DNA of 64,000 nucleotides from Methanolobus zinderi (lineage in GTDB: Archaea > Halobacteriota > Methanosarcinia > Methanosarcinales > Methanosarcinaceae): NCBI RefSeq assembly GCF_013388255.1, contig NZ_CP058215.1, positions 682,001 to 746,000 on the forward strand, given 5' to 3'. The translations under genes were made by a program, and so were the position numbers. Position 1 is the first letter of the stretch. The number at the start of each line of letters is the position of its first letter. Below, one piece after another: positions 27,959-43,171 of the stretch. The notes under the pieces are model-generated. The model was given only the letters and a program-made list of their open reading frames with translations, did no database searches and had not been told where the DNA came from.

Positions 27959-30900
27959 TTAATTTTGCTGTTTTCTTACGAGGAGATAGGCGATGGCAAG
28001 GATCAGTCCTGCAAATCCGGCATAGACCCATAACATTGCATAAGATGTTGAAGATTCCGTTCCTGATCTTGATGTGTTCTCTGCAAGAGGATCTTCATTC
28101 GTTTCGATTTCTTCTTCCATCAGGACAGTACCGTCAACGATATTCTCTGTTTGAATCTCCGTACTCATGCCTGTAATGGCAAAAGGTGAAAAACCAGGTG
28201 TCTTTGCTTCAAAGTAAAGGTATTCCTCATCAGAGCCACACAGTTCGGTGGATAACTTATTCCATACCCCTCCTGAGTATCTCTGAAGCTCTAAGGATGA
28301 CTGATCAATATCATTTTCAAGCAACCATTCCCTGTCAACCCTGAATCCGATTACAGGGTCCCTGATGTTTTCCTCTGTGGCATAACCTGTTTTTCCGACC
28401 CAGATATTTATATTCTTATAAACTGTGCCGGAGGCTACGCTATTGGAAAATGTGGAAGTATTCTTTAAAACCTCTATAGTCACAGTGATTTTTCCCGCAT
28501 TCTTCAGTGACAGGTAGCGGACATAATCTATGTCGTTCTTATCATCATTGAAATCAAAGTCCACAACCTCGTCCTTTCCGGCATATAATGTGAGTACATC
28601 CTTGAAGACGATATTTTCATATTTTTCACCTGTGGAGCCGCCTCCGCCACCACCGCCTCCTCCGCCGGAGGAGCTGGATGTGGTAGTTATTACTGCAGCC
28701 GTTGTAGCACTGATATTGGACCAGTTACCTGTATTGCCTGCAAAATCTATGGCTCTGAGCCCGTAATCGTAGTCTGTGGCTTCAGAAAGTCCTGTATCCG
28801 TGGTCTGTCCTGCAGAACTGTTCTTTAAGAATACTCCGTTCTTCCATATCTCCACATGATCTGTGTCCTGAGATTGGTTCCATGTCAGTGTTACTGATGA
28901 CCGGGTACTTGAGTACGTAAGATCACTGATTACAGGTGCAGTATTATCTTCCAGCGGCGCATAAATGCTTAGGTGGGTGATATTTGCTGTTACCGTGTGT
29001 GCAGATGTATTTCTACTAGTCCTGAAGGAAATCCAAGCGTCTTCCTCTGGATTGTACCAGGCAAGCATCAATTTTTCTGCATTTGTTACAAGGTAGGTGT
29101 CATATCCGAGGGTAAGGGATACATTTCTTCCGAACTGATACGAATAGTTAACATCGGACTCATTAATCACTCTGATATCGATTGGACTTGCTGCAAGAAT
29201 CGAACCGTCCACAGGCTCCTCTCCTCTTACAATAGCAGCAGAGATGTTTCCGGGATTTGCTGATGTGCCTGTGATATTGAAGTTAAGGACAGAATGACTG
29301 ACATTATTGCTGATACCCGGGACAGAAAGGATGGCTTCATCATTTCCTTCAGTATTGAAAGTCTCTCCAAGACTAAGATATATTGTTGTGTTGGAACTGA
29401 AATAGTTGTTCTCGGAATTATTGTAAATTGAAGTAACGTTGATGGTATTCGTTCCATTCGACAATGGGATGTTTGTTAAATTGAACATGCCGTTTGAAAC
29501 AGGCCATGACTCATTGGTAATGATTCCATTGACATATACTGATATATTGGTCGCTATTCCTGCAGTTCCGTTAAGTGAGAAATTATCTGCTGGCAGGTAG
29601 TAGATAGTTCCTGACTCTGGTGAATCAATTGTTGGCTGACTGTTGAATACTGTGAAGTTCACAGTGGTTGAATTTACGAATCCAGTTATGTCCTCAGCAA
29701 AGACTGTAAAGTTATGCTGACCTTCTGTCAGGTTGAGGGTTGTATTGAACCAGAATCCTGTTTCTGTGGAGGAATTCTCTCCATTGTCAACGTTGTACCA
29801 GAAGTTACAGTACTTACTGTCACTGATGTTGATATTGACTGTATTTTCCTGTATTACTGAACTCTCTGCAATATCGTCTATTGTTATTACATTATCTTCT
29901 ACACTTACGTAGAATGTCCATTCGTAGCTTATCTCTTCGCTCTGGTTTGTCAGAGCAGTTATGGATACATTGTAATATCCTTCCTGGTATGGTTCTGCAG
30001 TCTGGTTCGATACATTGAATCCGCCATCTATGGGATAGGGGGTGGAATTAACACACAAACCATTTATTGTCATGTTTATTGAATCTGGGTTGATTCCATG
30101 TGCATGTGTAAGGTTAATCGAAACAGGAGTTAAGCCATTAGTTGTATAATTATTATTTTTAGGGTATTCATTTACATCAGCTTTGTAATATAGGACAAGT
30201 GAGAAGTTCTGAGGTCCTTTCTGGATTGCTGTTGCATTCACTATTATGTTATATGTTCCAGGAGCAGGGTCTTGTAATTCGATACCTTCAACGTTATTCA
30301 AAGTATCAGGTACAGATCCAAGATTTCCATATTTTTCGCTGTTGTCTGGCGTGACTAATATCATATCCAGGTTATTCACAAGCACGTTGTCTGCAGCATC
30401 AAATCCTGGATAGTCTGTCCAGACAAGCGTTGCCCTTAAATTGTCTGAATTTTCAGCTACATTATAACTGATATTCCATTCAGGATTGTAACTAACATTA
30501 TCCTGGTCATCATTTAATGCTTCAGGATTATCGAAATATTCAATGACATAAGGATACTGGGGATATATCGAGTTCTCAATATCAACGCGACCCCATCCCT
30601 GGGAATAATCTGGTCTGCCGGTACTTTCCGGATTTATATCACATGCTCCGTTAATCAATGTGGCTTTTATGAGTGCAGCACTCGGATTGGACACGTTATC
30701 TATATCGGTGTAGTACTGTCTGATAAGAGCAGCAGAACCTGCAACAATTGGTGTTGACATACTTGTGCCGCTCAGGTAAAGATAATTGCTATTAATTGCT
30801 TTACCATGTATAGTATCGGTTGTTGCCTCACTCGATCTTGTAGAAGCAATGAATGTTCCCGGAGCAACAACATCTGGTTTTATTCGGCCATCTGCGGTAG

Positions 30901-32230
30901 GTCCACGACTACTAAAAGATGCAACATCATTGACGTTATCTGAATAGTGTCCTTCTTCAGGTCTGTCATTTTCAGAAGCACCTACAGTCAGCGCATTTTT
31001 TGCAGTTGCCGGATAACCAATTGTGTTACTATTTGGACCTTCATTGCCAGCAGCAAAAACGATTAGCATGTCTGGATGTTCCCATACGAAAGAATCAACC
31101 TGTTGAGATTCAGTAGTATACTCACCACTTGAATCTCCTCCCCAGCTATTGGTATGTATTCTTGTACTCGTATCGGTGTTATAGGCTTGAAAGAAAACGT
31201 CTTTCAGGTTAGCTGGCAAATCTAAAACTTCTTTTTCTTTCTCATGACTATATTCCCCAATTGCTTGGAATACTAATTTTGCTTCAGGCGCCATCCCTGC
31301 ATACAGTCCATTTGAAAGATTTCCATTTCCCAGAACAGAACCAGCTACATGTGTCCCATGGCCTGAATATAAGTCTCGCTTATCCCCGTCATCTGCCACA
31401 TCAAAAATATCTATTACTCTTCCTCTAAAATCGTCATTCACCGTCTCTTTATTTCCCGTGTCAAGTCCGGTATCACAGACTGCCACGATCTGTCCGCTAC
31501 CGTTTAATCCGTATGTGTTGCGGACGGTATCCACAGTGATGATTCCTGCGGCAACATCATTGTTAATAGTCGGTAGGACGTATTCTTCGATCCAGCTGAC
31601 ACCACTGATGGATGCTATCTCAGGAATTTTGTCGGCAGAAGTTTCTACTCGAAGTACATTTCCTGAACCGGAAAGGATCCTGACTCCGAGATTTTCAATA
31701 TTAGAAATAATTCTCTTGTAATCGGATTCAGAAAACAGGATTACATGGTATGTTTCTTCTGTATCTGTATCTGCTTTGGATGTCAGAATCCCTTCCTCGC
31801 CTGTCAGCTCTGACTCGTACTTGTATGATGGTTGATATTCGCCTACCCATTTGACAAAATCCAGGGATTCGACATTTGCTTTTACATCAGTGCTCATCTT
31901 GAAAATGAAAGCGTTGTTGGGAACATAATTGTAGATGGTGGCTCCTCTGGCTGTTATATTCTGTCTCCATGTTTCCCGGGCTGGTCCGGTAAATTGTACG
32001 ATATAATATCTATCAACATCTTCTGCAGACTGGATGGAGTATTTACTGGTCGTCTTCTCTTCAGTCTGCAATTCCTCTTCTCCTGAAGTATCTGTATTTA
32101 TATGAGCGGCTTTTAAGAGGATGAGATTATTGTCATTAAGATCTGTATTATCCGTACTTCCGGAAACTGCAAGCGTAGTGGGTAATAATATGAGAATAAT
32201 GGCTACAAGTATCGTGTTTTTAGTATGCAT
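27959..32230 (-). CDS. Secreted subtilisin-family (S8) serine protease with Ig-like repeats and PGF-pre-PGF domain
   Basis: 1423 residues. A Sec signal peptide (about 1-24) is followed by an inhibitor-like prodomain (about 70-225) and an S8 catalytic domain with D253 (VAVCDTGLD), H294 (SGHGTHVAG), N395 (FAAGNEG) and S490 (SGTSMSTP). After that come a jelly-roll-like domain, several Ig-like modules, a poly-Gly linker, the PGF-pre-PGF domain (VWVGKTGYA-type block, PGFSPFAITG) and a C-terminal membrane segment ending in VRKQQN. It should be displayed on the cell surface. The adjacent upstream gene is a paralogue with the same layout. Confidence 0.9.
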   Translation of the reverse strand: MHTKNTILVAIILILLPTTLAVSGSTDNTDLNDNNLILLKAAHINTDTSGEEELQTEEKTTSKYSIQSAEDVDRYYIVQFTGPARETWRQNITARGATIYNYVPNNAFIFKMSTDVKANVESLDFVKWVGEYQPSYKYESELTGEEGILTSKADTDTEETYHVILFSESDYKRIISNIENLGVRILSGSGNVLRVETSADKIPEIASISGVSWIEEYVLPTINNDVAAGIITVDTVRNTYGLNGSGQIVAVCDTGLDTGNKETVNDDFRGRVIDIFDVADDGDKRDLYSGHGTHVAGSVLGNGNLSNGLYAGMAPEAKLVFQAIGEYSHEKEKEVLDLPANLKDVFFQAYNTDTSTRIHTNSWGGDSSGEYTTESQQVDSFVWEHPDMLIVFAAGNEGPNSNTIGYPATAKNALTVGASENDRPEEGHYSDNVNDVASFSSRGPTADGRIKPDVVAPGTFIASTRSSEATTDTIHGKAINSNYLYLSGTSMSTPIVAGSAALIRQYYTDIDNVSNPSAALIKATLINGACDINPESTGRPDYSQGWGRVDIENSIYPQYPYVIEYFDNPEALNDDQDNVSYNPEWNISYNVAENSDNLRATLVWTDYPGFDAADNVLVNNLDMILVTPDNSEKYGNLGSVPDTLNNVEGIELQDPAPGTYNIIVNATAIQKGPQNFSLVLYYKADVNEYPKNNNYTTNGLTPVSINLTHAHGINPDSINMTINGLCVNSTPYPIDGGFNVSNQTAEPYQEGYYNVSITALTNQSEEISYEWTFYVSVEDNVITIDDIAESSVIQENTVNINISDSKYCNFWYNVDNGENSSTETGFWFNTTLNLTEGQHNFTVFAEDITGFVNSTTVNFTVFNSQPTIDSPESGTIYYLPADNFSLNGTAGIATNISVYVNGIITNESWPVSNGMFNLTNIPLSNGTNTINVTSIYNNSENNYFSSNTTIYLSLGETFNTEGNDEAILSVPGISNNVSHSVLNFNITGTSANPGNISAAIVRGEEPVDGSILAASPIDIRVINESDVNYSYQFGRNVSLTLGYDTYLVTNAEKLMLAWYNPEEDAWISFRTSRNTSAHTVTANITHLSIYAPLEDNTAPVISDLTYSSTRSSVTLTWNQSQDTDHVEIWKNGVFLKNSSAGQTTDTGLSEATDYDYGLRAIDFAGNTGNWSNISATTAAVITTTSSSSGGGGGGGGGGSTGEKYENIVFKDVLTLYAGKDEVVDFDFNDDKNDIDYVRYLSLKNAGKITVTIEVLKNTSTFSNSVASGTVYKNINIWVGKTGYATEENIRDPVIGFRVDREWLLENDIDQSSLELQRYSGGVWNKLSTELCGSDEEYLYFEAKTPGFSPFAITGMSTEIQTENIVDGTVLMEEEIETNEDPLAENTSRSGTESSTSYAMLWVYAGFAGLILAIAYLLVRKQQN

Positions 32231-32351
32231 GAACCAACATCCTTGGCTATTTGGGATGTCTGGATATTGGCCTAAATATATTTATACATACTGATTAATA
32301 AAAAAAGATTTGTTGATACAGTTTCTTATAATAGTCCTTTTGAAACATGAA

Positions 32352-35300
32352 TCACTTTTTCCTTATAAGCAAACAGGCAAGGCAAATAAGCAAAAGGCTG
32401 ATCGGACCGGATAGTGCATCTAAAGTACGTTCTGCTTCAGTCTCGTTTACCGTGACTTCTCCTTCCAGTACTGAATCGTTATCGCCATTTTCCGGTGTGG
32501 AATACAGAGTTTCCGACCCATCGGCCAGTTTTGCTTCATCCTGTATCTTTATTCCTGTGATCGCAAAGGGAGAAAAGCCCGGTGTCTCTGCTTCAAAGTA
32601 AAGGAAATCCTCGTCAGAGTCCACGATCTCAGTTGCCAATCTGCTCCATGAACCATCGCTGTATCTGTTGAGACTAATAGAGTCATCATCTATGTCTTCT
32701 TCATTGATCCAGGATTTGTCGACTCTGAATGCTATGACAGGGTCGGCAATGTTTGCATCAATAGCATAGCCGGTTTTACCGACCCATATATTCATGTTCC
32801 TGTAGATCTCTCCGGAAGGCAAGGTATGAACAAATGTTGATTTGTCCTTCAGGGACTCGATTGTTACGCTTATTGTGCCTGCATTCTTCAATGAAGTGTA
32901 TTCAACGTACATTATGTCAAGATCCGGATTATCGAACTCGAATCTGGCTACCTTGTCCTTTCCTACGAAGAGTGAGTTTACGTCTTTGATCTCGATGTTC
33001 TCATATTCTTCCCCGGTGGTGCCTCCGCCACCGCCACCGCCTGAACTGCCGGAGCTTATTGATGTGGCTGGTGTTGTGGATGCTGATAATTCTTTTACAG
33101 TTATTGTAACTGTTTGATTATCACTTTTTTCACCATCGGTCACGCTGAAATTTATATCGTAAGTTCCTTTTTGGTCAGTTGTTGGGGTCCAGTTGAATAG
33201 AAGGGAAGTATCGTTGAATGTTGCTCCATCTGGCAAAATACTTTCATTAGAGTACGTAAGGTCATTACTATCTATGTCGGTTGCGTTGATGAAGAATTGT
33301 AGATTCTTGGTTACTTCTATAATCTTTGGGGAAATTGAGTCAAATTCAGGAGGAGCATTGTCCTCATAAACTGTTACTGTTATAGTTTCACTGTCTGTCA
33401 AAGAACCATCCGATACCTCTACATCAAACGTGTAAGAATCAGGTCTCTGTGACTCTGTTGGTGTCCATGTGAATACTCCGTCAGATGTTATTGCTGCACT
33501 ATTTGGTACTGTTCCTGAAAGACTGAAAGTAAGTGTGTTTTCAGGAATGTCAGAATCAGTTGCCGTTGCTGTAAATGTAAGTTCTGTAAGTTCATCAATT
33601 GTCTGATCGCCTATTGAATCAAGTACCGGAGCAACATTGACTTCTTTAACTGTTACTGTTATGGTCTCACTGTCTGTCAGAGAACCATCCGATACCTCTA
33701 CATCAAACGTGTAAGAATCAGGTCCCTGTGACTCTGTTGGTGTCCATGTTAATACTCCATCAGATGTTATTGCTGCACCATTTGGTACTGTTCCTGAAAG
33801 ACTGAAAGTAAGTGTGTTTTCCGGCAAATCTGAATCATTTGCCGTTGCTGTAAATGTAAGTTCTGTAAGTTCATCAACCGTCTGATCACCGATTGTATCA
33901 AGAACAGGAGCATGGTTAGTGACAGGTGAAGCATTCATATTAAATTCCCAATTATATGAGAATTCCTGTCTGCTAATCGTCTGCGCATTCACTGAAACAT
34001 TATAATCTCCATTCTGGTAAGCAGTTGGCGTACTATAAGAGATTCTATATCCACCGTCGATTTCAACGGCAGTAAAGTCCACAGTTGAGTCGTTGATCAT
34101 CATCTGTATGGAACTCCGGTCCACTCCTCCAGGATGAACTACATTCGTGGAAACAACTGTAGAACTATCATCTGTAGATGATCCGTTTGCGGGGAATTCA
34201 TTGTTGTCGCAGGTGAACGACAGTACAAGGGAGAAGTCCTGTGGTCCTTCCGGTACATTTGTACCGTCAACTCTGATTTTATAATCTCCGGCTATGGTTT
34301 CATCTATTTCCACTCCCTCTACGTTGTTAGCAGTATCTGGAGCATTATTCAGATCATAATTTCCGTAGTATGTGTCAAATGAGTCTGTGATTGTAAGATC
34401 AAGATTGTTCACAAGTACTTTTCCTGCAGCCTCGGATCCCGGATAGTCGGTCCATACGAGTGTTGCACGCAGGGGCTCGCCTTCTTCTATGTATCCGTAA
34501 TCAAACTCCCAGAAATCATCTGTGTCAGAGATTGTCTCCTTATCAAAATAGGCGATGACTTCCGGATATCGTGGGAACAATGAATTTTCCAAATCGATTC
34601 GCCCCCATCCCTGTGAGTAATCTGGCCTGCCTTCAATCTCCTGATACTCTTCAGTTCCATACTGTCCGGGGGTCATGTCGTGGGCACCATTAATCAGGGT
34701 TGCCTTGATTAGTGCCGCACTTGGGTTTGAAAAACCTTCAGTATCACTGTAGTATTGCCTGATAAGAGCTGCAGAGCCGGCGACTATCGGTGTTGCCATA
34801 CTGGTTCCACTCATAGGGGCATAGTTTTCATTTAAATACCATGAGTTAATACTGGCTTGGCTGGACTTTACTGACACGATATATGTTCCAGGTGCGATCA
34901 AATCGGGTTTTATCCTTCCATCAGTTGTAGGTCCCCTGCTGCTTGTGGCTGCAATGCCTTCAATATTATCTGCTCTTTTATCTACATCAATCGGGAAACC
35001 GTAAGAATCTCCCCATGTATTAATAAAACTGCTTCTGTTATTTTCAGAAGAGCCTACTGCAATACAGTTCTTAGCAGTTGCCGGATCCTGTATAGAATTC
35101 TGATCCACAATACCGTCATCATCCTGGTCTACACCGTAGTTACCAGCTGCAAACAAAATCAGCATATCAGGATTTTCCCACATAAACTGGTCTACCTGCT
35201 TTGAAAATATCGTATAATTTCCATACTCTCCTGTGTAACCCCAACTATTGGAGTGCATCTTTGCACCAAGATCATACGCAGGCTGAAAAACTGATTGGTT

Positions 35301-36305
35301 AATATAATATGGAACAGACAAAGTACCATTTGAATTCAGAAATTCTAAAAAAACAAGGCTTGCTTCGGGTGCCATTCCTTTATACTGGCCGCCTGACTCC
35401 GCACCATTACCGAGGATCGAACCAACAACATGTGTTCCATGACCATGCATATCTGCTGCACCGTCATCAGAAAGATAGACAAAATCCAGTATCCTTCCTC
35501 TAATATCTGCATGCATGGATTCATCATCAACACCTGTATCTACACCGGTATCACAAACGGCAACTATCTGTCCACTACCATTCAATCCGTGTGTATCGTG
35601 AACAGGCGTTACGCCGACAATACCTGCGGCAATGTCATTCAAAAGAACAGGTTCCCGATATTCCTCTATCCAGCTAACACCATTGATAGCCGCAAGTTCA
35701 TCTATTCTGCTCTTTGGGATCTTTATCCGAAGGATATTATTGGAATTCTCTGTCACAGTTCCTTGTATCTCAGTGATCTCTTCATCTATTCTGGAATTTT
35801 CACTTGCATCAAAGACCATTACCAGCAAATCTGCTTTTTCCACTTCTGATTCAGACGTCAGTTTGTTTGCTGTGACTGTGATTGCAGGTTCATACTTGTA
35901 GGAGGCCCGGTATTCGCCTATCCATTTTACAAAGTTTAGTGAACTTACCTCTGGTATAACAGAAGCGTTCATTCTCACAATGAATGCATTGTCAGGTAGA
36001 TAGTCGTACAGTACTGCCCCTGTCTGACCCAGTTCTTCTTTCTGATCTTCAAAGACAGGTCCTCTGAACTGTGCAATGTAGTATTGTTCTGTAACATCAA
36101 TGGCTTCTTCAATTGAATTTGAAGATACGGCAACTTCCTGTCCGTCTTCCTCTGCAAGTTTATCCGTATTTATCGTAGTTGTTTTAAGAAAAATATGATT
36201 TCCGCTGTTATCTGCCAGACTTATGTTTTCATTATCTGAACATGATGCTGTAAAGATCATTAAAAAAACAAGAATCAAAAAGAACAAGGTACGTTTTGTG
36301 TACAT
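32352..36305 (-). CDS. Secreted subtilisin-family (S8) serine protease with cadherin-like repeats and PGF-pre-PGF domain
   Basis: 1317 residues from ATG 36305, which has AGGTGG about 10 nt upstream; the frame is open to 36344 but that start lacks such a site. The signal ends in a lipobox-like FTASC. The catalytic triad is D252 (VAVCDTGVD), H292 (GHGTHVVG) and S502 (SGTSMATP), with N389 (FAAGNYG). Downstream are two nearly identical 93-residue cadherin-like repeats and a third diverged one (about 795-1080), a Gly-rich linker, a PGF-pre-PGF domain and a C-terminal anchor ending LLIRKK. It is a paralogue of the next gene and probably arose by tandem duplication. Confidence 0.9.
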   Translation of the reverse strand: MYTKRTLFFLILVFLMIFTASCSDNENISLADNSGNHIFLKTTTINTDKLAEEDGQEVAVSSNSIEEAIDVTEQYYIAQFRGPVFEDQKEELGQTGAVLYDYLPDNAFIVRMNASVIPEVSSLNFVKWIGEYRASYKYEPAITVTANKLTSESEVEKADLLVMVFDASENSRIDEEITEIQGTVTENSNNILRIKIPKSRIDELAAINGVSWIEEYREPVLLNDIAAGIVGVTPVHDTHGLNGSGQIVAVCDTGVDTGVDDESMHADIRGRILDFVYLSDDGAADMHGHGTHVVGSILGNGAESGGQYKGMAPEASLVFLEFLNSNGTLSVPYYINQSVFQPAYDLGAKMHSNSWGYTGEYGNYTIFSKQVDQFMWENPDMLILFAAGNYGVDQDDDGIVDQNSIQDPATAKNCIAVGSSENNRSSFINTWGDSYGFPIDVDKRADNIEGIAATSSRGPTTDGRIKPDLIAPGTYIVSVKSSQASINSWYLNENYAPMSGTSMATPIVAGSAALIRQYYSDTEGFSNPSAALIKATLINGAHDMTPGQYGTEEYQEIEGRPDYSQGWGRIDLENSLFPRYPEVIAYFDKETISDTDDFWEFDYGYIEEGEPLRATLVWTDYPGSEAAGKVLVNNLDLTITDSFDTYYGNYDLNNAPDTANNVEGVEIDETIAGDYKIRVDGTNVPEGPQDFSLVLSFTCDNNEFPANGSSTDDSSTVVSTNVVHPGGVDRSSIQMMINDSTVDFTAVEIDGGYRISYSTPTAYQNGDYNVSVNAQTISRQEFSYNWEFNMNASPVTNHAPVLDTIGDQTVDELTELTFTATANDSDLPENTLTFSLSGTVPNGAAITSDGVLTWTPTESQGPDSYTFDVEVSDGSLTDSETITVTVKEVNVAPVLDSIGDQTIDELTELTFTATATDSDIPENTLTFSLSGTVPNSAAITSDGVFTWTPTESQRPDSYTFDVEVSDGSLTDSETITVTVYEDNAPPEFDSISPKIIEVTKNLQFFINATDIDSNDLTYSNESILPDGATFNDTSLLFNWTPTTDQKGTYDINFSVTDGEKSDNQTVTITVKELSASTTPATSISSGSSGGGGGGGTTGEEYENIEIKDVNSLFVGKDKVARFEFDNPDLDIMYVEYTSLKNAGTISVTIESLKDKSTFVHTLPSGEIYRNMNIWVGKTGYAIDANIADPVIAFRVDKSWINEEDIDDDSISLNRYSDGSWSRLATEIVDSDEDFLYFEAETPGFSPFAITGIKIQDEAKLADGSETLYSTPENGDNDSVLEGEVTVNETEAERTLDALSGPISLLLICLACLLIRKK
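33371..33928 (-). repeat. Tandem 279-bp repeats encoding cadherin-like modules
   Basis: Two adjacent units of 279 bp (starting at 33371 and 33650) are nearly identical at the DNA level, including silent positions, which indicates a recent in-frame duplication. Each encodes a module beginning APVLD.IGDQT and ending SETITVTV. A third, more diverged module precedes 33371. Copy number may vary between strains. Confidence 0.8.
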
Positions 36306-36508
36306 TACCAGACATCCACCTTTTTGTTTGAAATTTGAACTCACAATATATCTCTAAGTATGAGATACGCAAGTGATCAAAAGAATGTTAATAGCCAGCC
36401 CCTGCTTTACATCCTTAAAAAGGTAAAACATTCAATATTATATATCTTTTTGCAATTTTTTTTAAAAAAGTAAATAATAAAAATCAGATGCATAAAAAAG
36501 TAAAAATA

Positions 36509-36540: not shown

Positions 36541-39500
36541 TTACAACTTCCTCCTCTTCCAGAATCCGAAGTACATAGCCCCGACTCCGGCAAACACCAG
36601 AATAGAGGCTACAATATCCGAACCTGTAAATGAGAAGCTACTGCTATCCGGATTGCTGACACTTTCCTTTGTCATCTCGTAGCCCTCAACATAGTCATCT
36701 GGGGCGGATTTTGTCGAATCCTGGGCCGGTGAGTTCATATCTGTTCCTGCTCCGGAATCACTTATCATTGTCTGGTTGGAGGTACCTGTTCCCGGCTCAG
36801 TAACTTTTAAGTCTGATCCGGTTGAACTGCTTCCGGAAGATGATTTCGTCTGTGGCTGTGACTCAGGCGCCTTATGTTGGATTGCATCATTCAATTTAGC
36901 TTCATATTCATCCTGAACTTCCTGGCTAACGCCGGCAGCTCCCATATTCCCCTGCACGAATTCATCGAGTAACATGTTTCCACATGTATGGTGGCAGCAG
37001 GTAGCTCCGTTCTCCGCAACTGATTCGGTATATTCTTTCACAAGGTTATTGACCATCTCATCCGGCAGGTCTACATATCCTTTACGAACCGCTTCCAGCA
37101 TTCTTCCGGTAATGGACTGATAGGCTCCGGGATTGTTTGCATTGAAGAATTCCTTCATCTCTTCATTTATGTAGGTGTTATAGACGGTCTCCCACATGCT
37201 ATCATCAACAAGCTCCGGATTTGAAACTTCCCATCCCCAGAGATTGTCCACAAATTCGGCCATCATCCTGCCTCCTGAATAACCCGAGTTCATCATGCCC
37301 TCGATCCATTTGTCATTGAGATATCTGGAGCGGATGTTGATATTCAGGTACTCCTGCATGCCTATTATGCGTGCATCGTCAGGATTGCGGGTATCCGAGA
37401 CATACATTTCCGGTGTTTTGCCGCTGACATATCTTGTCGCAATGTTCAATCCACCGAAATACTGGTAGAAGTCGTCGTTGTCAAGTGTATCATAGAGGTT
37501 TGAGGAGTCAGAGTGTACAGATGCATCAACATTTCTGAGATTGCCGATGAGAAGCTCTGAACAATCGAATCCCCACAGGTCAGTACCGTAGGCATATCCC
37601 ATCTTGTCAATGTATAGTTCAGCGATTTCGGTATCGTTCTCCCAGGTTCCGCTTGAATCGACTGCATTTGCCACGGCTATCTCATAGGTACCATCCTTTA
37701 CGGCAAAACAGCGCATTGTAGATAGTTTGGAAGCCATTTCGGCAGCATATGTCTCGTTGCCTGTACTGTTGAGGAAAGAACTGTAAAGCTCTCCATAGAT
37801 TGCCTGGGTGCTGATATTGACATAGTTTGGATAATTGGTCGATTCTGCAAGGTTTGCCATCCTGGCAGCTTCATCCAGCATCTTCAGTTTGTCAGGGAAT
37901 GCATCTCTCATGCCCGCGGTGGTGTAAACAATGTCAATGCGCGGTCTTCCAGGTTTTGAGGAATCGTAGTTTGGTAAAAGTTCTTCCTCTGAGAGAAGTG
38001 TAAGACCGTCAACAACTCCGTTCTCGTCCCAGTGTGGCTTCACACCCAGCAGATAGAGTGCTTCTGCTTCAAGTGTTCCATGGTCTCTTATGAACTCCAC
38101 TCCGAATCTGGAAAATGATACTTTACGCGGATATTCTCCATGTTCCTCATAATAGTCAATGAGTAATTCCTGTGCAAGTGCCTTTCCAAGGTTCCAGGTC
38201 GCAACTGATGGGTAAAGGTCAGGGTTCACTCCATAGAAGTTGCGGCCGGTTGGTACTGCATTTGTGTTCATTATAGGGTCCGTACCCGGTCCGGCCGGTA
38301 TGAACCCGCCATTAAGAGCTGAGATCACTCTGTCCATCTCGATGGCGCTATCAAGAAGCCGTTGCCTGTACAGGAGTCCTGAGCTAAGGCTTTGAGTGAC
38401 AGATTCGTTTGTACCCCCGTAGACCATTATTTGTGAGTCGTTGATGTCGGTCTCATTCGTGACAACTTCCCAGACGAGTCTGTCCACTTTTGTATCATTT
38501 GAAGGGATACCAAGCGGATATTCGTCTTCCGGATAAAAAGCTGTAGTGACATTTGCCTCGAACTTGCTTCCCATCATCTGCCTCACCATTGCAGAGAGTT
38601 CATCTCTTTCGGGACCGGAGGTATTCATTGCAGGCACCACTCCAAGAACATGCATCCCGTAAGGTATATTCTCTCCCTCAATTTCTTCGATATATTCGTG
38701 AAGGGTGTTCCGGATGAAGTTATCGAACTGTGTCTCATTATAGAGATAAAGTTCTGTTGCATTGACTTCCAGGTCCGTATCCAGTCCGCAGCTTACCATT
38801 TCATCGATAATTGACATCTGGTATGCCTGCTTGGTCTGGACTGAAAGTTCAGGTCCGTAGTATTCCTGCATTAGCAGGGACATATTGGCGATTTCACCGT
38901 ATGTGCCTGCTCTTTCTATCGTAGGTGTAAGATGATCTATGATGAGCGCATTGCCCCTATACTCAGCGGTTAATCCTTCACCTACGTTTGCAACGATATA
39001 CGGGTAGATGTTGGGAAGGTCCTGCAGTAGCAGAGGGGCCCACTCGGACGAACGATTCATTCCGTATGATTGTCCTGGCAGCCATTCATGTGTACCGTGT
39101 GTTCCAAGGTGGATTATTGCATCGGCATCCCAGTCATCATTCAACCAGAGATAGAATGCGATGTACTGATGTGGTGGTGGAACAAGACTGCTATGGTAGA
39201 GTGTATCATCGTTCTGCATGAATCCTCTTGCAGGTTGTGGCATGATCCACACGTTGTCAAATCGGACTGTGGGTATAACAATATACTGTTCTCCTGTATT
39301 ATCTTCCCATATCATTAAGCTCTGATTCTGTGGTAGCTCCTCTGCCCAGGGCTCTCCCCATTGTTCGATAACATCCTCTCTAAGGTCTTCCGGTATTTCC
39401 TGCTCGAACCATTGCCTGTATGTTTCCATGGGTATGAGTTGAAGTCCCCACTCCGTTCTGTTCTCGACCATCTCATCCATAACTCCCGGTGCCCAAGAAC

Positions 39501-41355
39501 CTGCGTTTATACCCTGTGCCCATATCATCTCCAGAAGCTGGCTGTTGTTTTCGGGGACATTGCTAACAGTGTAATTTTCATTTTCCATCCTGTCGAGCAA
39601 TAATCGCATACTTGAGATGGTATCGAGGTAGCTTGCACCGATATTATCTTTTCCTGACGGATAATTGTAATAGATAATAGCTACCTTTTTGTCCTGGTTC
39701 TCTTTAAGTTTGAGCTCAGCCCAGTTGATAGAACGGTTTGCTATCCAGTCGATCTGATAATCCATTGGCACATATTCACTGGCCCCGGTCTCCTCGTCAT
39801 ACACTTCAGTGCCAAGTACGATAAACTCGAATATTCCGTCTACGTTCGGGCCGATAGTTTTGTAGACTACCTGTCCGCTCGGGATTCCCCTGTTAGCGTC
39901 CGCAGGATCAGTGGATTCTCCGACAACCATTCCCCGGAGAACCGGCACGTTCAGCTCTTCAAGTTCCTCAAGACCTTTTTCATTATCCCAGTAATTAAGC
40001 CTGAAACTCTTCAGTGAAATAACGCATTGTACTAGTGGTTCACCTGAGTCGTTACAATAGTAATTTATGATATTGTCATTGAATACATCAAATCCTGCTA
40101 TCACGTTACAGTCCTTGGCTTCCAGATCTCTTATGAGTGCATCAATTATTTCAAGATCTCCGTTCTGGACGTCATCCCTATGGAACCACATTCCAATGGT
40201 CGGTCGATCTGGATCATAGATCCGGTGCTCCCCGTAATTGTACTGCTGGTACCATTCGAGGTACTGTTCTGTGGTCTCAAAGTAACCATCAGTATAATCC
40301 GGATGATACAGACCCATGGCTGGCAGTGTCTGGTTCACACTCACGTAATTCCAGCTACCGGTAGTTTCGGTTTTATCAGAATACTCCTTTGCAAGACATA
40401 TCAGGAAATTCTCGGCATTCTTTGGAGCGCTGGCAAATTCCGATTCAATGTTGTTGTATGAATTGATCAGCGTTATATTTTCAGAACCATTGTATTTGTA
40501 GTCGAAGTACTCAGGTACTTCTGATGAGGATGTATAGATATCAATTAGTGTAGTTCCATTGTCATGTGCCTGAAGTAACCACTGATCGGTGGCATTGTAA
40601 ATGGAACCTTTCATCATCTCGCAGAAGATAGCATCCTGCTCAGCCAGGGTCCCATTCTCTCCGGCAGCTATTATCTCATCTGTATGTGCGCTTAAATCGC
40701 TGTAGTTGTATGTAGGGATGAATCTGAATTCCATGTTCTGGCTGTACGGATTTGTCCAGCTTGCCCTTTCCAGGGTATTGGCATACGTCCCCCATCCGGC
40801 ATATGTAATTTTTATAACCGGCCAGTTATCGGTAATTTCAGAATTATTCCCGTATTCTTTGGCAAGATACATCAACAAATTCTCTCCGTATCTCTTGCTG
40901 ATATTGGAATCGATTCCCATATTATCGTAATAATAGCATATGGGATCATCCCGATCTCCATCGGAAGTGTAATCAAAGCAAACGGGAACTCCTGCAGATG
41001 TCAGGTCTATTAAAGAAACACCGTTCTCATGAGCCTCTTCAAAATACTGTTCCAGTGGCTCATAAACCGCAGAGTTCAGCATATAGCAGAAAATAACATC
41101 CTGCGTGTTAAGGTATCCGTTTTCAGATGCGTTCAGCAATTCGTCGCTGGGACCTGAAGTCCCATAACCCTGTATATATGTGTATGAAATGTCATCTGCA
41201 ATGGAACCGTTCACACTGGCTTCTTTAAGAGAGGCGTGGGGTGCAAATGAGATATATGTTATGTTTATCTTCTGTTCTTCTGCCGATACAACCGTTGTTG
41301 CTGATGCAAACAACAATACACTTAATACCATTACCAGTATAGTTCTTTCTTGCAT
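36541..41355 (-). CDS. Membrane-anchored extracellular CobN-like chelatase
   Basis: About 1604 residues from ATG 41355, preceded by GGTGG; a TTG at 41400 in the same frame lies inside a hairpin and is not preferred. A signal peptide (VLLFASATTVVSAEE) is followed by two N-terminal repeats of about 150 residues (the NDVIFCYML and QDAIFCEMM blocks), then the CobN/magnesium chelatase H-like body (LGTHGTHEWLPG, SNYPNYVNI, FGWDCSELL-like region). Near the end is a Cys/His cluster TCCHHTCGN, a Ser/Gly linker and a C-terminal membrane anchor (LVFAGVGAMYFGFWKRRKL). Cytoplasmic CobN inserts cobalt into hydrogenobyrinate diamide; this one faces outside, so it more likely handles metal or corrinoid uptake or remodelling, powered by the adjacent ExbB/ExbD-like pair. 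Confidence 0.85.
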   Translation of the reverse strand: MQERTILVMVLSVLLFASATTVVSAEEQKINITYISFAPHASLKEASVNGSIADDISYTYIQGYGTSGPSDELLNASENGYLNTQDVIFCYMLNSAVYEPLEQYFEEAHENGVSLIDLTSAGVPVCFDYTSDGDRDDPICYYYDNMGIDSNISKRYGENLLMYLAKEYGNNSEITDNWPVIKITYAGWGTYANTLERASWTNPYSQNMEFRFIPTYNYSDLSAHTDEIIAAGENGTLAEQDAIFCEMMKGSIYNATDQWLLQAHDNGTTLIDIYTSSSEVPEYFDYKYNGSENITLINSYNNIESEFASAPKNAENFLICLAKEYSDKTETTGSWNYVSVNQTLPAMGLYHPDYTDGYFETTEQYLEWYQQYNYGEHRIYDPDRPTIGMWFHRDDVQNGDLEIIDALIRDLEAKDCNVIAGFDVFNDNIINYYCNDSGEPLVQCVISLKSFRLNYWDNEKGLEELEELNVPVLRGMVVGESTDPADANRGIPSGQVVYKTIGPNVDGIFEFIVLGTEVYDEETGASEYVPMDYQIDWIANRSINWAELKLKENQDKKVAIIYYNYPSGKDNIGASYLDTISSMRLLLDRMENENYTVSNVPENNSQLLEMIWAQGINAGSWAPGVMDEMVENRTEWGLQLIPMETYRQWFEQEIPEDLREDVIEQWGEPWAEELPQNQSLMIWEDNTGEQYIVIPTVRFDNVWIMPQPARGFMQNDDTLYHSSLVPPPHQYIAFYLWLNDDWDADAIIHLGTHGTHEWLPGQSYGMNRSSEWAPLLLQDLPNIYPYIVANVGEGLTAEYRGNALIIDHLTPTIERAGTYGEIANMSLLMQEYYGPELSVQTKQAYQMSIIDEMVSCGLDTDLEVNATELYLYNETQFDNFIRNTLHEYIEEIEGENIPYGMHVLGVVPAMNTSGPERDELSAMVRQMMGSKFEANVTTAFYPEDEYPLGIPSNDTKVDRLVWEVVTNETDINDSQIMVYGGTNESVTQSLSSGLLYRQRLLDSAIEMDRVISALNGGFIPAGPGTDPIMNTNAVPTGRNFYGVNPDLYPSVATWNLGKALAQELLIDYYEEHGEYPRKVSFSRFGVEFIRDHGTLEAEALYLLGVKPHWDENGVVDGLTLLSEEELLPNYDSSKPGRPRIDIVYTTAGMRDAFPDKLKMLDEAARMANLAESTNYPNYVNISTQAIYGELYSSFLNSTGNETYAAEMASKLSTMRCFAVKDGTYEIAVANAVDSSGTWENDTEIAELYIDKMGYAYGTDLWGFDCSELLIGNLRNVDASVHSDSSNLYDTLDNDDFYQYFGGLNIATRYVSGKTPEMYVSDTRNPDDARIIGMQEYLNINIRSRYLNDKWIEGMMNSGYSGGRMMAEFVDNLWGWEVSNPELVDDSMWETVYNTYINEEMKEFFNANNPGAYQSITGRMLEAVRKGYVDLPDEMVNNLVKEYTESVAENGATCCHHTCGNMLLDEFVQGNMGAAGVSQEVQDEYEAKLNDAIQHKAPESQPQTKSSSGSSSTGSDLKVTEPGTGTSNQTMISDSGAGTDMNSPAQDSTKSAPDDYVEGYEMTKESVSNPDSSSFSFTGSDIVASILVFAGVGAMYFGFWKRRKL

Positions 41356-41376
41356 GTTATCCACCCGATAGCGTGC

Positions 41377-41419
41377 AGAGCACTTCGGGAGTGCCGCCAA
41401 GCTTTTTCCGAAGTGCTCT
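41377..41419 (-). promoter_or_regulatory. 12-bp perfect inverted repeat in the cobN-like leader
   Basis: Arms AGAGCACTTCGG and CCGAAGTGCTCT (41377-41388 and 41408-41419) with a 19-nt loop lie about 20 nt before the preferred start codon. The stem would form a stable leader hairpin next to the ribosome-binding site. It could be a metal-responsive operator or an RNA control element between DUF2149 and cobN. No known riboswitch sequence is recognised. Confidence 0.55.
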
Positions 41420-41508
41420 AACCATCTTTTGTTTTTATCTATTTCATATTATACTAAATCAATATTATCTGTTTTTAAGCAAATTAAGTTGTTTTAATCG
41501 AGAAAAAA

Positions 41509-41874
41509 TTAAGTTGAAGTTTTATTTTCCTCCTCAGGTACATATACCACTCTTCCGTCAGCCAGTTTGTAGGCCGTTCCCAGAGCCTCCCCGGTTCCGC
41601 CTCCTATCTCGTCTGTCATGTTAAGGACCTCAATGGGTTTTCCCTGATCCTTTACAATAATCTTCATATCCTGCTGTCCCGGATTCTTTACGATGGTGAT
41701 ATCATCCGTGGGACTCAGGAGTTCCGGGAGCTGGTATGACATTACGAGTGCAATAAGCAGTGCCACAGAGAAGACCATGGCAATGTCGAAGAGATTGGCA
41801 ACACCTGTGAGAGGGCTCTGCTCATCCTCATTGGTAAGAAGTCCTGTTCGTCTGTATCTTCTCCTTCTTTTCAC
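41509..41874 (-). CDS. DUF2149 protein (ExbD-like partner)
   Basis: 121 residues: a basic N-terminus (KRRRRYRRTG), one membrane segment at about 28-46 (NLFDIAMVFSVALLIALVM) and a small extracytoplasmic domain. This layout is that of ExbD/TolR. DUF2149 genes recur next to MotA/TolQ/ExbB genes in methanogens. It overlaps the TolQ-like stop by 4 nt, so the two are coupled. With that protein it would form a proton-driven motor that energises the CobN-like surface protein; this function is inferred. Confidence 0.85.
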   Translation of the reverse strand: MKRRRRYRRTGLLTNEDEQSPLTGVANLFDIAMVFSVALLIALVMSYQLPELLSPTDDITIVKNPGQQDMKIIVKDQGKPIEVLNMTDEIGGGTGEALGTAYKLADGRVVYVPEEENKTST

Positions 41875-42494
41875 TCGCTTACCTCCAGTGTATCAAGGAT
41901 GTAATCAATATCAGCCATGTCCTGCCAGTACCATCTCTTTCTGACCTGTGTGAGCACATAGGCTATGGTTCCGGCGAACAGCCCTACTACGGTTGTTGCA
42001 AAAGCGATCATGAGATTATTTGCAAGCTGTACGATATCACCCTGGGACAATCCGATGAGTGCCGGTCCCAGTGGGATAAGTGTGCCCATAAGTCCAAGCA
42101 TAGGTGCGATGGTTGCCACGATCCGTGTTTGCTCAAGACGTTTTGCCATCTTTATTTCATATTCCTGTGACAGCCACTCTATTGCAGGAATAGTATTCTT
42201 TTCAAGATGAGCTGCAGCTTCCTTTGCAAAACTTGTGACCATGAAGTTCTGTTTGAGGTTGCGAAGGCCATCTGCTGCTGTTCCGAAGGATTTTTCAGTG
42301 AGTCTGTCCCTGACCTCAAGGCAGCAACTCTCAAGGTTTTTCATATCACGGTTGCGTTTTGCATATTCCGAAAGGAACTCTCCGATTAGTACCAGTGAAA
42401 AAAGTACCAGTAACAGGAGTATGATCACTACCGGGTACAGTAGTGAAGACGAGAACGTGTATAATATACCGTACAAAGACGAAGTTGTATCCAT
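41871..42494 (-). CDS. MotA/TolQ/ExbB-type proton channel protein
   Basis: 207 residues with three membrane segments (about 12-36, 112-140 and 155-178). The family signature is visible in the second and third: VATIAPMLGLMGTLIPLGPAL and AFATTVVGLFAGTIAYVL. Proteins of this family form pentameric proton channels around an ExbD/TolR dimer. It follows the DUF2162 gene by 2 nt and overlaps the DUF2149 gene, forming a tight operon upstream of the CobN-like gene. Confidence 0.93.
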   Translation of the reverse strand: MDTTSSLYGILYTFSSSLLYPVVIILLLLVLFSLVLIGEFLSEYAKRNRDMKNLESCCLEVRDRLTEKSFGTAADGLRNLKQNFMVTSFAKEAAAHLEKNTIPAIEWLSQEYEIKMAKRLEQTRIVATIAPMLGLMGTLIPLGPALIGLSQGDIVQLANNLMIAFATTVVGLFAGTIAYVLTQVRKRWYWQDMADIDYILDTLEVSE

Positions 42495-42496
42495 TT

Positions 42497-43171
42497 TTAT
42501 TGACCTCTCATATGATTAAAAGCAAAACCTCCAAGGATGAAGATTGAAAAAACGATCAATGGAAGTATCTCAAAATTAGCGCTTTCGATAGCTGAGATAT
42601 TCATCTGCTTTGCTTTGATATATGCCGGAACAAGCATTGCTCCGAGCATATAGAATATCCCGAGGAACATCATCACGGTTCCCAGATCTTCGGGAGAGCG
42701 TTTCATCTTCCTGAAAATAAAGGTTGATGATACTACTGATAAGAAGAAAACGATTCCGACTATAATACCTACTTTCCATCCACTGATCTCAAGACTTGAA
42801 GCAAGTATCATACAGGAAACAAACAGAGCCGTCAGGCAGACCGGGCAGGGAACTGATATCACCAGAAATGTCTTCTTTGAGACGTCATGCCCGCAGTTCC
42901 ATTTCTTCTGCGTATAGATCCCTGCCGCTATCAGGATAACTGCGATAAATACGTGTAATGTCATCCCTAGGCTTGCAATACTTTCCAGATATGATTGATT
43001 CACAAAGCCCACGAGACTTCCCAGTATCACAGATAACAAAAAGTAAGAACCTGCCAGGAAGAGCACTTTCTTCTTTTCCAGATTTGAAAATCCACATCCT
43101 ACTCCTGTCTTCAGGCCGAATATGGATATGCCGATAAGGATGCCTACTACTGCTGCGTAAAGTGTATTCAT
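42497..43171 (-). CDS. DUF2162 predicted membrane transporter
   Basis: 224 residues with about six or seven membrane segments. Notable residues are GLKTGVGCGFS in the first segment, NCGHD in a loop and SVPCPVCLTALFVS, a paired-Cys motif inside a membrane segment that could bind metal or undergo redox change. DUF2162 proteins sit next to CobN-like and ExbB-like genes in methanogens. A role in moving a metal or tetrapyrrole across the membrane is inferred from context only. It is first in the operon. Confidence 0.85.
   Translation of the reverse strand: MNTLYAAVVGILIGISIFGLKTGVGCGFSNLEKKKVLFLAGSYFLLSVILGSLVGFVNQSYLESIASLGMTLHVFIAVILIAAGIYTQKKWNCGHDVSKKTFLVISVPCPVCLTALFVSCMILASSLEISGWKVGIIVGIVFFLSVVSSTFIFRKMKRSPEDLGTVMMFLGIFYMLGAMLVPAYIKAKQMNISAIESANFEILPLIVFSIFILGGFAFNHMRGQ

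Follow-up and report, generated by a model that had tools for sequence, protein, structure and literature searches.

The cobaltochelatase CobN (CobNST) and ChlH (with ChlID) are cytosolic members of one fold family which act with ATPase partners and possess neither signal peptide nor membrane anchor. Their relative HmuS, from the hmuYRSTUV operon of Bacteroides and Porphyromonas, was shown experimentally in 2025 to be a membrane-bound periplasmic enzyme that takes iron out of heme in an NADH-dependent reaction yielding PPIX, a function for which His-538 is needed (PMC12583661). Its operon neighbours include HmuU, a MotA/ExbB-type protein, and HmuV (PMC12583661), the latter confirmed here to be a DUF2149 protein (E=2e-34, Prevotella locus). 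In the published models HmuU and HmuV energise the TonB receptor HmuR, while what archaeal HmuS/CobN homologues do is considered unclear and complete hmu operons are described as lacking in archaea (PMC10100974, PMC12583661). For exported CobN-like proteins named BtuS, metalloporphyrin salvage was proposed earlier, according to the portion of PMC6460266 that cites Rodionov 2003. A plasmid-borne CobN of Trichlorobacter (Geobacter) lovleyi (pSZ77/pGLOV01) belongs to a cassette of DUF2162, MotA/ExbB-type, DUF2149 and CobN genes (PMC3403914).

The window considered here, that is the whole 64,000-nucleotide stretch of DNA from the methylotrophic methanogen Methanolobus zinderi, carries this four-gene set, in identical order, on its minus strand between positions 36541 and 43171 (Table 1). 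All four had been recognised at these positions by the first-pass annotation, and each has a strong Pfam match. Since the order DUF2162-MotA-DUF2149-CobN returns in many archaeal families as well as in bacteria, it is far beyond chance. The CobN protein of T. lovleyi, with about 32% sequence identity, shares a CCxHxC motif and the absence of CobS/CobT with that of the window, and differs in its Gram-negative setting with TonB receptors, a separate exbBD-tonB set and B12 riboswitches. Only one CobN-family gene, that of the window, exists in the 2.70-Mb genome (one contig). Directly downstream of it (27959-36344) lie two tandem genes whose products are large surface proteases of the subtilisin-like type, related to each other in their C-terminal regions.

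Table 1. Features of the cobN operon, in window coordinates
Feature	Position	Strand	Basis
DUF2162 membrane protein, operon gene 1	42497..43171	-	PF09930 (DUF2162), E 2e-68
CPVC motif in DUF2162, residues 109-112	42836..42847	-	invariant columns P108, C109, P110, C112
MotA/TolQ/ExbB-type channel protein	41871..42494	-	PF01618 (MotA_ExbB), E 5e-12
DUF2149, small one-TM partner, HmuV homologue	41509..41874	-	PF09919 (DUF2149), E 2e-34
Conserved two-hairpin RNA leader of cobN	41353..41422	-	covariation, model R1, no Rfam match
CobN/HmuS-superfamily protein, predicted exported and membrane-anchored, 1604 aa	36541..41355	-	PF02514 (CobN-Mg_chel), E 2e-302
Predicted signal peptide MQERTILVMVLSVLLFASATTVVSA, about residues 1-25	41281..41355	-	hydrophobic segment after basic start
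N-terminal head domain, tandem duplication (residues 26-178 and 179-335)	40351..41280	-	34% identity
Class I chelatase core, PF02514	37054..40428	-	Pfam positions 8-1089 of 1090
Catalytic-type His of GTHG, residue 753, equivalent of HmuS His-538	39097..39099	-	alignment
Asp at the HmuS His-1209 position (TLDNDDFYQYFGG)	37474..37476	-	alignment with HmuS and CobN
CCHHTC motif (residues 1453-1458), after the chelatase core and before the anchor	36982..36999	-	alignment
C-terminal transmembrane anchor, followed by KRRKL	36559..36618	-	hydropathy and sequence

The true start of cobN is the ATG at 41355 rather than the listed TTG at 41400, which is too early, because a leader that is conserved in the Methanosarcinaceae precedes it and ends in GGATAACATG. 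With the start so moved the protein gains a classic signal peptide. The repeat region that had been reported at the N-terminus is real, consisting of two copies of about 155 amino acids each (Smith-Waterman score 229 against 32 +/- 5 in shuffles), and the CCHHTC cluster and C-terminal anchor are likewise present; signal peptide and anchor together support the earlier claim that the catalytic body faces outward. The motif, as CCHHTC or CCxHxC, is near-invariant in CobN proteins whose genes adjoin MotA/DUF2149 and is found in neither cytosolic CobN nor ChlH. Two variants were encountered among the relatives. Six cassette loci (L061:4687-9426, L065:9235-13965, L101, L111, L154 and L115) encode a CobN subfamily without the pocket histidine of GTHG, in which LEHP/LDHP replaces DNDD, and L042:9834-17288 is a single reading frame of 2484 amino acids specifying an exported CobN that is very much extended at its N-terminus.

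The closest PDB match of the window CobN is the HmuS heme dechelatase of Bacteroides thetaiotaomicron (9d26), and the two have in common export and anchoring, the neighbouring MotA/ExbB-type and DUF2149 genes, a branch of the family tree and the pocket histidine, the HFG(T/A)HG motif around HmuS His-538 reading HLGTHG in the window. Where HmuS has LSLDHxxEFMGG with His-1209, the window protein has TLDNDDFYQYFGG, with Asp in that position and a CobN-like DNDD; this conforms to the DxDD pocket motif of cobaltochelatase, which reads DSDD in Sinorhizobium meliloti CobN. His-254 (HGR) is replaced by SFR, and the column matching Met-79 is ambiguous in the alignment. His-1209 and the heme-ligand histidine of HGR are regarded as family-defining by the authors who described HmuS (PMC12583661). 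The window protein also differs from HmuS in its duplicated head, CCHHTC motif and RNA leader, and its operon differs in the absence of HmuY and HmuR and in the presence of DUF2162 in the place of HmuT, to which it has no detectable homology; there is, moreover, no outer membrane. With two HmuS-specific histidines missing and a CobN-like pocket motif, the window protein is by its residues a sister form and not HmuS. Delivery of Fe(II) to the cell by a heme-iron dechelatase of the Bacteroidota kind is an improbable account of the archaeal operon: it has in its favour that HmuS is the closest solved relative, with the same two neighbours, and that the BtuS proteins of Methanosarcina barkeri respond to the iron/sulfur source (PMC10846266), and against it the two absent histidines, the lack of recognised HmuY or iron genes near archaeal cassettes, and the want of detectable homology between DUF2162 and HmuT. 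Within the Bacteroidota, two Prevotellaceae loci (L140, L151) carry an HmuS-like gene with a long MotA-family reading frame and DUF2149; in L140 CobQ-like genes adjoin it, and these loci are likely to represent a corrinoid version.

The choice of partner was followed through 130 CobN-family proteins with their neighbours (a few of them redundant), drawn from a DUF2149 search of 247 genomes belonging to the phylum, from fetched loci and from plasmid records. A hydrophobic N- or C-terminal segment occurs in 105 of the 109 homologues beside MotA/DUF2149, the other four being truncated or borderline sequences, and in none of the nine beside ChlD/ChlI ATPases or the ten unpaired archaeal CobN; two further unpaired rows do have a C-terminal segment, and these belong to the motor clade, the neighbour being uncalled or the contig cut. 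In a tree of 92 rows, inferred by a quick method with SH-aLRT as the single support measure, a branch supported at 100% has all motor-linked CobN, HmuS included, to the same side. That side also holds three exported or unresolved rows, and CCHHTC/CCxHxC is limited to it. As far as sequences can tell, CobN proteins are of two kinds with exclusive partners: the cytosolic kind keeps to ChlD/ChlI ATPases, the exported kind to MotA/DUF2149, and the latter makes up one branch. Split and clade together suggest that a proton motor replaces the ATPase; the chelatase may have exchanged the one for the other when it moved outside, where ATP is absent.

The M. zinderi protein conforms to the exported kind. 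It is predicted to lie outside the cytoplasm and reaches 1124 bits with the best NCBIfam model, against the 1619 required by the equivalog cut-off for cobaltochelatase CobN. A profile search of the genome gave no CobS over the cut-off, so that the standard CobS/CobT setting, which the first-pass annotation had named as evidence against its reading, was not found. Elsewhere in the genome (L188:12959-15700; C1:2374042-2376586) there is a split ChlI and ChlD ATPase pair with no cytosolic CobN partner; it would, however, be separated from the exported CobN by the membrane.

The putative motor resembles ExbB/ExbD, TolQ/TolR and MotA/MotB in its channel family and in the layout of a channel with a one-TM partner. 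The channel protein scores 46 bits against PF01618 (cut-off 22.9), and the GTLIP and T/V segments in its channel helices are invariant. In DUF2149, whose model has a confidence too low for a fold search (pLDDT 58), a near-invariant membrane Asp sits in NLFD. Of the ExbB/ExbD-like motor proposed earlier, the ExbB-type channel and small one-TM partner hold good, whereas comparison of DUF2149 with ExbD sequences was negative; the label 'ExbD-like' would refer to topology and the conserved Asp, and proton coupling of the pair is presumed. Archaea also lack a TonB or Tol partner. Since archaea have no outer membrane and the Trichlorobacter cassette has its own exbB-exbD-tonB adjoining, the pair is probably more than a TonB energiser; the recurrence of the same two motor genes without an outer membrane, taken with the partner split, points to a motor that serves the chelatase itself.

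MotA-DUF2149 pairs also exist without CobN. In Methanolobus and relatives they lie beside S-layer proteins (PF07752; L037:9419-13284, L045:5931-9721, L040, L043, L110, L130, L145), where they may form a proton-driven motor of the surface layer, and in ANME-1-like loci (L064:1525-12021, L071, L067) they adjoin NosD/beta-helix or CARDB surface proteins. Such neighbours would suit a CobN body that is enzymatically dead, the motor and surface protein forming a pair for envelope mechanics or sensing. The chelatase core and pocket motifs are strongly conserved and CobN cassettes occur in riboswitch and metal contexts, and we regard this explanation as highly improbable.

DUF2162, the product of the first gene, is a candidate permease for metal or tetrapyrrole. 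The paired-cysteine motif ascribed to it in the first-pass annotation is borne out, PCPVC being invariant in 44 of 44 homologues. The predicted model is helical and membrane-embedded (pLDDT 83); a fold search of it against the PDB yielded nothing significant (best E 0.19, TM at most about 0.39), and for this reason no transporter family was assigned. Kinship with HmuT or UreH was considered and rejected, no homology being detectable by sequence comparison. In two of the ANME-1-like loci (L064 and L071) DUF2162 is fused to TPR domains.

The cobN gene of the window is preceded by a 70-nucleotide leader comprising a stem of 10–12 base pairs with the loop consensus GCCKSCAAGCAA, a second small hairpin whose loop holds the ribosome-binding site, and then the ATG. 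In an alignment of 21 sequences, both-side changes occur in eight of the ten stem pairs and 95.8% of cells pair; covariation is 0.374 (shuffled versions give 0.172, slid ones no more than 0.126), with 53 both-side changes in all. The window copy scores 48.1 bits with the covariance model R1, and a separate calculation for the leader gave z -3.24. The model has 54 hits, spread over 37 of 61 Methanosarcinaceae genomes. Among 28 sampled loci with a reading frame downstream, that frame was identified automatically as CobN in 23 and has a second-CobN-type N-terminus in two; the remaining three (L255, L261, L269), for which another ATG was chosen automatically, are left unassigned. Tandem cobN genes have one leader copy each. 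Applied to 1.2 Mb of other loci (S-layer-linked motors, cytosolic CobN, bacterial cassettes and the Nik/Cbi/ChlID regions of the same genome), the model matched only L129, L122 and L066, and an exported cobN follows in each. The copies of the window, L132 and L066, and one of those in L142 (9442), have the same arms with an inverted apical loop between them. No Rfam match was obtained at the gathering score or at E values up to 5, and the leader differs in structure from the cobalamin riboswitch (RF00174). The covariation argues that this two-hairpin leader before exported cobN across the Methanosarcinaceae is a previously undescribed structured RNA.

Cobalamin riboswitches lie upstream, on the same strand, of 10 of the 12 Desulfobacteria/Geobacter-type four-gene cassettes with upstream sequence (L072, L078, L079, L080, L081, L082, L083, L084, L085 and L124). 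L096 and L139 have none upstream, the sole riboswitch of L090 follows the cassette, and L077 is cut. A further one directly precedes a MotA-DUF2149-CobN operon of the Comamonadaceae (L158). No known riboswitch model, RF00174 included, matched the window DNA. As the homologous bacterial operons are switched by B12, the archaeal system probably helps to scavenge cobalt or corrinoids. Archaeal cassettes are in places adjoined by Co/Ni ECF transporters, namely CbiMN-QO in Methanoculleus (L148), CbiMQO in L066 and, in ANME-1, ECF genes at L183/L091, which stand on both sides in L183; this adjacency is a modest enrichment and not a rule. The corrinoid or cobalt connection made by the first-pass annotation is likely on the strength of these bacterial riboswitches and archaeal transporters, and its suggestion of a metal insertase gained no positive support.

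Four Methanosarcina genomes have a TGTTAYC-N6-GRTAACA site either 58–77 nucleotides ahead of DUF2162 or within that cluster. Each repeats it in the intergenic region of nrdHD, whose product is the ribonucleotide reductase that does not need B12, and each has a gene for the B12-dependent NrdJ as well. The shared operator fits the logic of a B12/cobalt regulon. It is rated as suggestive because the nrdHD site is about 400 nucleotides upstream of nrdH and about 300 from a divergent gene. Neither NrdJ nor the operator was found in the window genome. An ATATGA-N5-TCATAT palindrome upstream in the window was dropped, not being conserved among Methanolobus relatives, and the genes beside the Methanosarcina cassettes that, judged by size, gave the look of a transport operon proved to be chance neighbours, encoding fibrillarin, Nop and a GHMP kinase. 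In one of the four genomes (L054:17375-17929) a secreted protein with a B12-binding domain (PF02310, E 9e-24; DxHxxG motif DSHTFG; signal peptide) is encoded between CobN genes; in the other three no such gene is adjacent.

Capture and import of corrinoids or tetrapyrroles with the metal retained, CobN being an outer-face receptor that hands the corrinoid to DUF2162 with release driven by the ExbBD-like pair, appears somewhat unlikely. It would accord with the B12 riboswitches and TonB receptors that precede the cassette in bacteria, with the duplicated, PBP-like head domains and with the persistence of the operon in the subfamily without a pocket histidine. It is opposed by the BtuFCD-type ABC genes that often adjoin the cassette in bacteria, by the retention of the catalytic histidine in most members, and by the small size of DUF2162 and its metal-like CPVC motif.

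Nickel could also be the metal acquired, from F430 or other Ni-tetrapyrroles of dead methanogens under NikR-type control. The cassette of Azospirillum adjoins nikR and an ABC/TonB-receptor set, that of Runella lies inside a hyp/[NiFe]-hydrogenase cluster with a UreH-like permease in the place of DUF2162, and NikR is encoded in the window genome. A CobN1 of Methanothermobacter, which may or may not be of the exported form, responds to nickel limitation (PMC12350162). The archaeal contexts do not part nickel from cobalt (CbiM and NikM alike) and the riboswitches point to cobalamin; a dedicated nickel system is accordingly rated as unlikely.

The explanation preferred here, held with a little less than even confidence, is an extracytoplasmic, proton-powered machine for processing metallo-tetrapyrroles, which would most likely strip cobalt from extracellular corrinoids or tetrapyrroles. 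CobN, exported and anchored on the outer face of the membrane, would bind tetrapyrroles with its head and neck and process them within the pocket of the class I chelatase, the work being drawn from the proton gradient through the ExbB-like channel and DUF2149, where cytosolic relatives use the ChlID or CobST ATPase. Cobalt (nickel in some lineages) would be removed, and the freed metal would pass to the CCHHTC site and from there to DUF2162, through CPVC, or to Co/Ni ECF transporters. By analogy this agrees with HmuS, the nearest biochemically known member, a de-chelatase of the periplasm accompanied by the same pair of genes, and it would fit the retained pocket histidine and CobN-like DNDD motif. 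Removal of cobalt from intact corrinoids is chemically hard. Against the machine so described count the origin of the riboswitch signal in bacterial relatives, the lack of NrdJ and of the Methanosarcina operator in the window genome, the one cassette subfamily without the pocket histidine, the adjacency of the secreted B12-binding protein in just one of four genomes, the negative comparison of DUF2149 with ExbD, and the iron and nickel responses of archaeal homologues. Proton coupling, demetallation in preference to import, the identity of the metal as cobalt in M. zinderi, and the part given to DUF2162 are those elements of the scheme which we infer. A bolder version is offered tentatively: a PMF-powered archaeal surface chelatase might strip Co/Ni from corrinoids or F430, an ExbBD-type motor replacing the AAA+ partner here and in HmuS, while the new leader, possibly ligand-sensing, would control the translation of each exported cobN.

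An extracytoplasmic chelatase with MotA and DUF2149 partners had been put forward as new by the first-pass annotation; in that form it is already known as HmuS/HmuU/HmuV (PMC12583661), the exported CobN-MotA-DUF2149 arrangement being known in the Bacteroidota; of the archaeal system no account was found in open-licence papers on archaeal CobN with ExbB. What is new is the partner split, the cobalamin riboswitches on bacterial cassettes together with the Co/Ni transporters beside some archaeal ones, and the covarying leader, a structured RNA that brings with it a candidate regulon, the members of a single gene family. The exported clade would be widened from heme to the salvage of cobalt and corrinoids, and perhaps of nickel, with relevance to the metal supply of methanogens and ANME archaea.
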